Assembly: GCA_016219235.1 (NCBI GenBank) | Contig: JACRBO010000341.1 | Span: 1 to 10,467, forward strand | DNA: 10,467 nt | Origin: Chloroflexota bacterium | Lineage (GTDB): Bacteria > Chloroflexota > Anaerolineae > Fen-1058 | Direction of reading: 5' to 3' | Shown here: positions 613-3,789 of the stretch, piece by piece | Layout: every line of letters starts with the position of its first letter | How positions within the stretch are numbered: position 1 is the stretch's first letter | Translations under genes and position numbers: made by a program | Notes under the pieces: model-generated | Seen by the model: only the letters and a program-made list of their open reading frames with translations | What the model was told of the DNA's origin: nothing | The model's database searches: none

Positions 613-1941
613 TCACTTCTGTGCGGGCTTGTCCTTCAGACCGCGATACCACTTGCGCGTGCGATCGCTCCACTGTTTGTGGACGAACAGCGCCACGCCG
701 TGCCACATGCCCCACAGGACAAAATTCAGCGCGAGGCCGTGCCACAAGCCAATCACGATCATCGTCGCGAGTTGCGTGATCACCACAATCACCGTCGATG
801 AGGGTCGGCGTTTCAGCATCAACAGCCAGCGCGACAGCGGCGAGAACACATACGCCCGCGCCCACGCGCTCAACGTCATGTGCCAACTCTGCCAGAACGT
901 CGTGATATTCGTCTTCAAATACGGACGATTGAAGTTGTCCGGCAAATGAATCCCGAACAACAAACCAAGGCCGATAGCAATATCGGTGTAGCCGCTGAAA
1001 TCGAAATATAAACGCAGCGCGTAACCATACAACAACGCCCACAAGCCCAGCGGATTATCGATCTGGGCGGCGTTGATGGCATTGAGTGATGCGCCTTGCG
1101 CCAGCACATCGGCAATCGCGAATTTCTTCAACACCCCGATCGCGATCCGATTAAGCCCGACGGCCCAGCGTTCTGCGTCGAAGCCGCGCAGCGCGGGCAG
1201 GGCGCGCACATCGCCGACGAAGCGCTCGGCGCGATCGATCGGCCCCGCCGTGAACGACGCGAAGAAGATGATGTAGGTCACATATTCGCGCAGGGACAGT
1301 GCCGGCAATTGCCCCGTCTGTCGATCGCGCAACGTGTGCAGCCAGCGAAAGGCTACATACGAAAAGCCCAGCCAATTGAGATCGAGCAGACTCGCCAGCG
1401 AAGTGTCCTGGCCCGTCGCGCCGCGCCACAGTTGACTGACGGCTTTCGCTAACGGCTCGGCCTTCAGCACGATGAATAGCCCGATGATCAACACGCCGCC
1501 CAGCGTGACGATGTGTCTTCGATCGGCGCGGTGAGTCAATCGGGTTGTTGCGATGAACAAGGCGCTCACGATCAACACCGCGACGATCACCATCACTGGA
1601 TCGGGCGGGCGCGACGGCGTCAGGCGATAGTCCGCATCGACGAAGCGGAACAACGACAGCCCGATCACACTCAGCGTCATCGCGCCGATCGTAACTACAT
1701 CGTCGTGGGACGGGCGGGTTTGATCGGGCGATCGGGTCCACCACCACGCCGCGATCGTGATCGCCAATATCGCCGTCGGCAGGATGTAGTCGCTAAATCG
1801 AATCGGCAGGGGCGGTTGCAGCCAGTAGATGGCGATGAGGCTGCCGACAAACAACGCCCACGACCGCGCGCGGGCAGGCAGTCCGGCATAGACGATGGCG
1901 AGTCCGCCGAAAATAGCGATGGCGCGCAGATCGAAGGTCAC
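613..1941 (-). CDS. MBOAT-family membrane O-acyltransferase (AlgI/DltB-like), probably cut short by an internal TGA
   Basis: A polytopic membrane protein of 442 codons, starting at GTG 1941, three bases after the stop of the microprotein gene. MBOAT hallmarks appear in order: FFASFTAGPIDR (226-237); LYFDFSGYTDIAIG (311-324); NFNRPY (336-341); FWQSWHMTLSAW (349-360, His354); and two WHG motifs (400-402 with His401, 413-415). His354 and His401 match the two histidines found in this family (WHxxLS and the membrane-buried catalytic WHG). Such proteins move an acyl group across or out of the membrane for O-acylation of alginate, peptidoglycan or teichoic acid; the substrate here is unknown. SGNH proteins lie on both sides, and a one-helix peptide precedes it. 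The frame stops at TGA 615-613, yet the conserved last helix continues in frame to 481, so this is either a nonsense mutation, a sequence error, or a shortened but still active enzyme. Confidence 0.9.
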   Translation of the reverse strand: MTFDLRAIAIFGGLAIVYAGLPARARSWALFVGSLIAIYWLQPPLPIRFSDYILPTAILAITIAAWWWTRSPDQTRPSHDDVVTIGAMTLSVIGLSLFRFVDADYRLTPSRPPDPVMVIVAVLIVSALFIATTRLTHRADRRHIVTLGGVLIIGLFIVLKAEPLAKAVSQLWRGATGQDTSLASLLDLNWLGFSYVAFRWLHTLRDRQTGQLPALSLREYVTYIIFFASFTAGPIDRAERFVGDVRALPALRGFDAERWAVGLNRIAIGVLKKFAIADVLAQGASLNAINAAQIDNPLGLWALLYGYALRLYFDFSGYTDIAIGLGLLFGIHLPDNFNRPYLKTNITTFWQSWHMTLSAWARAYVFSPLSRWLLMLKRRPSSTVIVVITQLATMIVIGLWHGLALNFVLWGMWHGVALFVHKQWSDRTRKWYRGLKDKPAQK

Positions 1942-1944
1942 GAC

Positions 1945-2061
1945 TTAGAAGCCTTGATAGATCCACTGCGGCGCGCTGTCGGTGGTGGCGATGATCACGA
2001 GGAGCGCGATCACGCAGAGCGCCAGGGCGATGAGGTTTTCACGCGAGAAGAGTCGGGACAT
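1945..2061 (-). CDS. 38-residue single-helix microprotein upstream of the MBOAT, DltX-like C-terminus
   Basis: A short frame from ATG 2061 to TAA 1947-1945. It encodes a basic N-terminus (MSRLFSREN), a hydrophobic helix of about 17-20 residues (LIALALCVIALLVIIA), and a short polar stretch ending APQWIYQGF at the C-terminus. It is on the MBOAT strand and ends three bases before the MBOAT GTG, which suggests translational coupling. In Gram-positive dlt operons the microprotein DltX also has one membrane helix and ends in an aromatic motif of the F-I-Y-x-x-F kind; its C-terminal tyrosine is reported to act as an acyl relay between DltB and the acceptor. W-I-Y-Q-G-F fits that pattern. By analogy, Tyr36 could carry the acyl group delivered by the MBOAT. 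That is inference; the size, topology and position are directly visible. No clear Shine-Dalgarno sequence precedes the ATG. Confidence 0.7.
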   Translation of the reverse strand: MSRLFSRENLIALALCVIALLVIIATTDSAPQWIYQGF

Positions 2062-2577: not shown

Positions 2578-3789
2578 TCAAGGATTCAGTACCCGCCACA
2601 CCCGATTGAGCATGATGAGCGCCGTCAGATTGTGGATAGCGTGACCTTTGGTAAACGCGATCGGCACGCTGTAGTCGTGCGCAAAATAGAACGTCATGTG
2701 CGTGCCATCGACGGGATCGATGCCGGAGTCAGGCAGCGTCTGCGCCACGATGTCAAAATCCCAGAGCGGCAGGTTGTTGTCGGCGGCCAGTTCACGCAGG
2801 ATGTTGTTGTTGAGGTTGCCCTCGCCCTCGTGCCGATCGGCCTTGGTGCCGATGATGGGAATCACGCCCTGCTGAATGCAATACGTGATGGCGTCCTGCA
2901 TGCCCTGCCTGAACAGATCGGGCGCGCCCACATCATTGGAGCCGAGCCGGAAGATTGCCACACTGGGATTGTGCAGGCGAATCTCACAGGGCAACGGCCC
3001 TTCATTCGGCTCGCATTGATCTTTGTCCGCCCACTGCGGATTCATCAATGACCAGGCGTGAATGCCGCGGTGTACGGCGACACTGTAGCGTGCGTGCGAA
3101 CCGAGATAGACGTTGATGATGTCCTGCAGATATGCATACCGGCCCAGATCATATGGCCCGCTGTCGAAGCGCAACATGAAATGCGGATTCTCGATGGTGC
3201 TGTCGCCGACTTTGGAATAGGCTCGCGCGTTGCGACCCAGTGCCTGCCCGGCGGCGAAAATCTTGAGCATGTTCGCCTGCACGGCGGGCGGCATGATCAC
3301 AAATTGATCGATCGCGATGCCGTTGACGTCGGTCGATGGCACGAGTGTCGCCGTCGGCGGGTCGCCCGGCGTGAGCGTGCCGCCGGGCACGGGCGTGCTG
3401 ACGGGCGCGGGCGTCTCGGTCGGGCGTGGCGTGATCGTCGGCGTGGGAGTGGCCGTGGCTGGATCGGGCTGCGTGCCCAGCGGAATGGTCAGTTTTTGCC
3501 CGATGCGGATCTGGGCCGGATCGCTGATGTGGTTGATGCGTGCCAATTCACTCAGCGAGACGCCATATTGCTGCGCGATGCGAAACAAATTGTCACCTGC
3601 CTGGACGGTGTGAACGATCGCCATGCTCACTGCGGCATCAATCGTCAAGGTTGGTGCGATCGGTGCTTCGATCGATCGAGGCGCGGGGGTGGCCGCCTGA
3701 TCGGGCGTGAGGCTGCCGGCCGGTTGGCAGGCAGTGATAATCGTCAGGCAAAACAGACCCGCCAGACCTGCGATAAGCGTGTGGCGCAT
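2578..3789 (-). CDS. LysM-domain lipoprotein with C-terminal SGNH/GDSL hydrolase domain
   Basis: 403 residues. Residues 1-21 are a lipoprotein signal with lipobox IITAC (Cys21). A LysM domain covers about 59-104 (HTVQAGDNLFRIAQQYGVS at 60-78, ending IGQKLTIP), which usually binds peptidoglycan or other GlcNAc polymers. A Thr/Pro-rich linker (about 108-152) leads to an SGNH hydrolase domain: block I KVGDSTIE (Ser197), block III LGSND (Asn285), and block V DPVDGTH (Asp361, His364). All catalytic elements are present, so an active O-acyl esterase or transferase at the outer membrane face or cell wall is plausible. It begins the minus-strand run that includes an MBOAT and a second SGNH protein, pointing to acyl modification of an envelope polymer. 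The ATG at 3789 is followed directly by a proper signal peptide, and a promoter lies about 40 bp upstream. Confidence 0.88.
   Translation of the reverse strand: MRHTLIAGLAGLFCLTIITACQPAGSLTPDQAATPAPRSIEAPIAPTLTIDAAVSMAIVHTVQAGDNLFRIAQQYGVSLSELARINHISDPAQIRIGQKLTIPLGTQPDPATATPTPTITPRPTETPAPVSTPVPGGTLTPGDPPTATLVPSTDVNGIAIDQFVIMPPAVQANMLKIFAAGQALGRNARAYSKVGDSTIENPHFMLRFDSGPYDLGRYAYLQDIINVYLGSHARYSVAVHRGIHAWSLMNPQWADKDQCEPNEGPLPCEIRLHNPSVAIFRLGSNDVGAPDLFRQGMQDAITYCIQQGVIPIIGTKADRHEGEGNLNNNILRELAADNNLPLWDFDIVAQTLPDSGIDPVDGTHMTFYFAHDYSVPIAFTKGHAIHNLTALIMLNRVWRVLNP

Follow-up and report, generated by a model that had tools for sequence, protein, structure and literature searches.

What does a frame of 38 codons do directly ahead of an O-acyltransferase gene, when its product looks like DltX and no dlt operon surrounds it? 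The question is raised by positions 1 to 10,467 of contig JACRBO010000341.1 from a Chloroflexota bacterium (assembly GCA_016219235.1), the whole of which is called the window here, and where an original prediction, made from the letters alone, had placed a DltX-like relay microprotein beside a DltB-like membrane-bound O-acyltransferase (MBOAT) and outside a canonical dlt operon. That placement holds. The frame is a genuine gene conserved in Chloroflexota and, on the analysis reported below, its product very probably ferries an acyl group, bound to a tyrosine, from the MBOAT to a surface enzyme, in a pathway other than Dlt. More precisely, the microprotein would be a tyrosine acyl shuttle that works in trans, in a pathway that runs alongside Dlt and is supplied by a carrier protein together with a fatty-acyl-AMP-ligase-like enzyme; we give this reading a probability of about 0.82. 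The features that bear on it most directly are these:

1945-2061, (-) strand: the proposed shuttle microprotein, 38 residues, with a basic N-terminus (MSRLFSREN), one helix and the tail DSAPQWIYQGF
613-1941, (-) strand: DltB-like MBOAT lacking a fused shuttle tail (PF03062, 81.5 bits; TIGR04091, 219 bits, cut-off 375)
481-612, (-) strand: continuation of the MBOAT frame past a TGA, covering the last helix region, ending in ...LFGVATGE and holding no shuttle motif

The microprotein frame opens with ATG, closes with TAA and translates as MSRLFSRENLIALALCVIALLVIIATTDSAPQWIYQGF; for this window, the comparisons rest on the genomes and loci of relatives. A genome scan made with the MBOAT only returned 26 loci, 24 of them from Chloroflexota metagenome-assembled genomes, and a small frame ending in WIYxxF lies near the MBOAT in 19 of these 24. 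Such a frame, recurring where the MBOAT was the sole query, is not a chance open reading frame. Five MBOAT loci have no such frame nearby (L002, L003, L004, L007 and L010), and three of them (L002, L007, L010) start near a contig end. A microprotein profile of 20 rows (A1) finds a copy in all 23 genomes behind the 24 Chloroflexota loci (22/22, plus G010); in G002, G003, G006 and G009 the microprotein is present and conserved, but away from the MBOAT locus.

Across 50 copies (49 different 32-residue cores), E8, P31, I34, Y35 and F38 are invariant, N9 (48 copies), W33 (49), Q36 (48) and G37 (49) are nearly fixed, and nearly all copies end in WIYQGF, although the pattern that collected them demanded [WF]IYxxF, which itself accounts for part of the conservation in those columns. 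As a check on this pattern, the motif is present in all full-length copies found by profile (26 genomes; 24 places in a second scan). Helix positions mostly drift among hydrophobic residues, and the uncorrected ratio of nonsynonymous to synonymous differences per site (pN/pS) is 0.19 for tail residues 27-38 and 0.44 for helix residues 7-26, with pS at 0.67-0.84, i.e. synonymous sites near saturation. A short frame upstream of orthologous MBOATs, coding constraint, and a C-terminal motif kept while the rest drifts had all been anticipated, and all three were found. Each of the 50 copies thus has the DltX-type build, one helix followed by a C-terminal F/W-I-Y-x-x-F. In a protein-database search with a 16-row microprotein alignment, 7992 candidates were scored and at least 3919 clusters reached E<=0.01; the best-scoring 120 of the 3919, a biased sample, carry no Pfam domain, are called "hypothetical protein" where named, and end in WIYQGF in 120 of 120 cases. 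Nothing relevant was matched when the microprotein profile was compared with PDB sequences.

Does this gene belong with the MBOAT beside it? Microprotein matches that reach the C-terminus at E<1e-12 occur in 26 of 301 sampled Chloroflexota genomes, and the MBOAT clade, at 560-700 bits (next MBOAT, 256 bits), occurs in 26 as well; they are the very same genomes (Fisher p 4e-38, relatedness ignored), the score gap of MBOAT and microprotein is independent of the fine choice of threshold, and the profiles share 10 of 22 MBOAT rows, 1 of 20 microprotein rows and 8 of 16 ligase rows with this sample. Weak microprotein matches in 18 further genomes (E 0.002-0.08) were taken as chance, one of them (G167) being the DltX of locus L207.

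The MBOAT starts with GTG at 1941, 3 bp past the microprotein stop, and the histidine of its GLWHG motif stands at residue 401, both as originally stated. This catalytic-type histidine (H401, invariant in 22 aligned rows) and the PF03062 match place the protein in the MBOAT superfamily, and DltB is its best match in NCBIfam and PDB searches. No shuttle hexapeptide of the fused PatA/AlgI type ends the window MBOAT or its clade relatives. An in-frame TGA at 613-615 (-) stands 44 codons ahead of the next stop. Because L001, a 91% identical relative, has a sense codon at this position and reads on, and the window frame beyond the TGA is open as far as 481, the listed 442-residue protein probably represents a copy that is truncated or was mis-sequenced; the TGA would be either a recent nonsense change, a population variant or a sequencing error. 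An inverted-repeat-like stretch (GCGAATGAATTCGC ... GCGAATTCATTCGC) was seen by eye at 380-490, in the interval that separates the MBOAT frame's end from the SGNH gene described below.

MBOAT is the next gene after the microprotein in 45 of the 50 cases, one gene intervenes in L024, and no clade MBOAT follows within the available sequence in L084, L105, L106 and L107. In 37 of the 45 adjacent loci, the microprotein stop and the MBOAT start, the latter picked mechanically, are -1 to +4 nt apart. Two genomes, G018 (L019/L108) and G019 (L020/L109), have two microprotein genes each, every one adjoining its own MBOAT and SGNH genes. Three further genes flank the pair in the window:

3-362, (-) strand: N-terminal part of an SGNH (DltD-like) transferase, cut at the window edge, with a membrane helix and block I (GDSATWGW)
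2147-2599, (-) strand: small lipoprotein-like gene that recurs as the microprotein's upstream neighbour
2578-3789, (-) strand: LysM plus GDSL/SGNH-like secreted protein, a recurrent neighbour of the microprotein

The SGNH part is 54% identical to the SGNH protein of L006 over the stretch present, and a Pfam search with the fragment alone gave no match. In the SGNH alignment GDS is invariant in 28 rows and H349 near-invariant (the window copy ends before this histidine), and fold matches of the L006 relative include DltD, as expected of a DltD/PatB-type SGNH protein with a GDS serine and a downstream histidine. The lipoprotein-like and LysM-GDSL genes adjoin the microprotein even where the MBOAT is elsewhere (L105, L106, L107), and their products may act on the acylated product. 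A short TCACTCATCACTCGTCACTCATC-type tandem repeat, noticed by eye, occupies 2101-2150 between the microprotein and the lipoprotein-like gene.

Why, then, are DltA and DltC not visible? The operon is cut short by the window edge, and because related loci continue into SGNH, acyl carrier protein and AMP-forming ligase genes, DltA and DltC are replaced by another carrier and ligase rather than absent; what had been concluded from their apparent absence was a window-edge effect, counterparts being present in related loci and genomes, yet not DltC and DltA by profile. Of the adjacent loci, 36 extend 5 kb or further downstream; SGNH is found in 29 of these, the carrier in 23 and carrier plus AMP ligase in 22 (counts from single-sequence searches, to which a profile search of the loci without carrier or ligase added none). 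The usual order is lipoprotein-like, microprotein, MBOAT, SGNH, (LysM/GDSL-like), carrier, ligase. In the wider set of 47 genomes, the carrier profile matches in 46 (45 at >=94 bits, G001 at 54, G078 none) and the ligase profile in 43 at E<=1e-100, the four missing being G001, G007, which has a ligase fragment at a contig end, G078 and G198. Carriers have an invariant DSF, including the phosphopantetheine serine, and match DltC models weakly; ligases show conserved adenylation motifs. For the three linked ligases tested, the nearest NCBIfam family by rank is fatty acyl-AMP ligase, at best scores of 334-357 bits against curated cut-offs of 572-600, which leaves them outside that family as curated.

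Whether this pair feeds the MBOAT can be questioned, as the shuttle could work as proposed with an acyl-CoA donor (e.g. acetyl), carrier and ligase serving another pathway. Carrier and ligase do stand together but away from the MBOAT in several genomes (G010 C26, G069 C8, G270 C64, G143 C9), and 2 of the 26 microprotein genomes have no ligase match. An acyl-CoA donor is nevertheless unlikely, given the 22 of 36 loci with both genes downstream and a ligase clade (>500 bits) that is present in 24 of the 26 microprotein genomes versus 1 of the 275 others. This single genome, G246, holds a clade ligase at 957 bits, but neither the microprotein nor the clade MBOAT.

The other MBOATs of the phylum show what forms a shuttle motif can take. 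Of 57 further matches at E<=1e-30 in the 301 genomes, 56 have a readable end: 42 carry a fused FxYxxF tail, two nearly so (L157 NIYKNF, L170 VLYAKF), ten are tail-less, and L166 and L196 are ambiguous (L196 being a FIYP form). Eight of the ten tail-less proteins were profile-tested and all are DltB, seven over the TIGR04091 cut-off of 375 and L213 at 366.7; a separate peptide ending in F[I/V]YQG[F/Y] lies upstream in eight of the ten loci, the other two being cut by contig ends. In a midpoint-rooted tree of 76 MBOATs over 272 columns, restricted to Chloroflexota and leaving out L166, L196 and L206, the new clade (22 proteins, support 0.967), the DltB group (10, 1.0) and both together (32, 0.987) each form a single group versus 44 fused-tail MBOATs. 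Because the tree joins them as sister clades, the separate-peptide arrangement looks like a common feature of DltB and the new clade. The suggestion that a relay peptide is a general part of MBOAT systems thus survives for the motif, which elsewhere is fused to the MBOAT C-terminus (42/56 here) and was already known in that form from PMC12148441, but the separate microprotein goes, among the MBOATs examined, with DltB and its new sister clade. On one contig, two fused-tail MBOATs ending in FIYFQF (L083 1822-3222 and 4273-5667) lie about 2-6 kb upstream of a separate-microprotein MBOAT.

A rule by which carrier-fed MBOATs would use a separate peptide and CoA-fed ones a fused tail was considered and rejected, as it is not strict: L237 (6877-8298, (-)) and L238 (6011-7516, (-)) break it, with MBOAT tails ending in FIYP and FVYP beside a carrier and a ligase. 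Such tails are a possible third form of shuttle tail. Around fused or nearly fused MBOATs (20 loci) the carrier profile found none and the ligase profile one match (L236, 98 bits), a weak result since the carrier profile is narrow and gave no DltC match for the ten Dlt loci either.

How would the microprotein work? In DltX and PatA chemistry, as described in PMC12148441, an MBOAT histidine helps to move the acyl group from a cytoplasmic thioester to the tyrosine of a hexapeptide, and from there to an SGNH serine. Every component that this chemistry calls for occurs in the new system, its carrier and ligase being of another type than those of Dlt. We infer topology, acyl-tyrosine chemistry, direction of transfer and complex formation along the same lines: in the cytoplasm, the fatty-acyl-AMP-ligase-like enzyme would activate a carboxylic acid and load the dedicated carrier protein with it; helped by His401, the DltB-like MBOAT would pass the acyl group from the carrier thioester through its tunnel to Tyr35 of a microprotein whose helix would lie beside it, N-terminus in and C-terminus out; the presumably extracellular tail DSAPQWIYQGF, with Tyr35 as the proposed acyl carrier, would then swing towards the DltD-like SGNH protein and its serine, and this enzyme would esterify a hydroxyl of a polymer or lipid outside the cytoplasm. 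A fatty or hydroxy-fatty acid is the preferred acyl group because of the ligase's relatives. That this is a second family of shuttle microproteins, moving a ligase- and carrier-activated fatty or hydroxy-fatty acyl group rather than D-alanine or acetate to a surface polymer or glycolipid, a kind of "Dlt for lipids", is a more tentative proposal, which we hold at slightly under even odds.

Small membrane subunits are common, and the peptide could instead serve the MBOAT as a subunit needed for structure or stability, with a tyrosine that carries no acyl group. A co-fold of microprotein plus MBOAT, made by stop read-through, is compatible with such a role: the MBOAT was well modelled and only the microprotein helix was placed, at moderate confidence (block means 73 and 76), the tail remaining unplaced, and the model speaks neither for nor against docking. 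A purely structural subunit is nonetheless quite unlikely, since the strongest constraint falls on the extreme C-terminus and not on the helix, the sister DltB MBOATs have the same arrangement, and the tail matches the motif on which acyl-tyrosine was demonstrated in PatA (PMC12148441).

Could the system be an ordinary Dlt after all, with D-alanine as the acyl group and DltA and DltC divergent or unlinked? The MBOAT's best match to DltB, the SGNH protein's resemblance to DltD and the weak carrier matches to DltC models speak for it. Canonical dlt gene sets do exist in the phylum (L207-L214; eight loci with DltX, seven of these with a profile-tested DltB and two with DltA) and provide controls. 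PF12459 (DltX) matches 8/8 peptides from these true Dlt loci (six over and two under the gathering score) versus 0/20 microprotein-family members at E<=10, and TIGR04091 gives 367-450 bits for true Chloroflexota DltB versus 219-239 in five members of the new clade. No DltA passes the curated cut-off in the 23 genomes, the best match (288.8 bits) falling on a 1729-residue frame, versus 512-548 bits for two true Chloroflexota DltA, below the 559.85 of TIGR01734 and above the 476 of NF003417; no DltC does so either (0/23; best 27.4 bits versus 52.35). Both systems coexist in G051 and G291, while in G270 the new system is accompanied by a DltB-like MBOAT that lies at a contig end. Because the DltX, DltA and DltB models recognise Dlt loci within the phylum and not the new family, the new system is, by these profiles, distinct from canonical Dlt; with the tested ligases closest to fatty acyl-AMP ligases, the ordinary Dlt reading is very unlikely and was rejected. 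Finally, a leader peptide or spurious frame serving only translational coupling, which the very short stop-to-start distances might suggest, is barely credible and was rejected, as was a chance frame, on amino-acid conservation, given a constrained tail amid nearly saturated synonymous sites and copies conserved away from the MBOAT.

The Chloroflexota envelope is poorly known, and the new system suggests a surface modification in this phylum. Its components often lie all in one operon, and its microprotein family is large, without Pfam annotation in the best 120 of 3919 clusters; with it, one can test both whether tyrosine-shuttle chemistry extends to acyl groups beyond acetyl and D-alanyl, and how fused and separate shuttle forms originated. 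It looks new because a 2025 JBC paper (PMC12148441) describes non-Dlt MBOAT/SGNH pathways as having neither a carrier protein nor a DltX-like microprotein. The new system, with both and with no tested Dlt cut-off passed, provides a counterexample, apparently undescribed: literature searches at the level of listings, with subscription papers outside their reach, found no description of it.

Set against known systems, the ligase and carrier resemble fatty acyl-AMP ligase/acyl carrier protein pairs (NF006624, NF005850), the best matches of the tested ligases, in their adenylation motifs and carrier DSF, and differ from them in scoring below the cut-offs and in being linked to an export-type MBOAT. 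Such pairs usually belong to polyketide synthase/non-ribosomal peptide synthetase (PKS/NRPS) or lipid pathways. With PatA/PatB, AlgI and WssH O-acetylation (PMC12148441), the system shares a tyrosine in a C-terminal hexapeptide and the MBOAT plus SGNH logic; in those pathways the MBOAT bears the motif as a fused C-terminal tail, with acetyl-CoA as the donor for PatA, whereas here the motif is encoded by a separate gene and a carrier is linked. The closest parallel is DltX-DltB-DltD-DltC-DltA, with its separate one-helix microprotein ending in xIYxxF, tail-less MBOAT, SGNH protein, and carrier plus AMP-forming ligase. In contrast to Dlt, the new microprotein is not PF12459, the carrier scores below the DltC cut-off, the ligase is fatty-acyl-AMP-ligase-like, the MBOAT stays far under the DltB threshold, and the gene order is X-B-D-C-A, against X-A-B in one Chloroflexota dlt locus. 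The system thus follows the logic of Dlt and is not a member of it.
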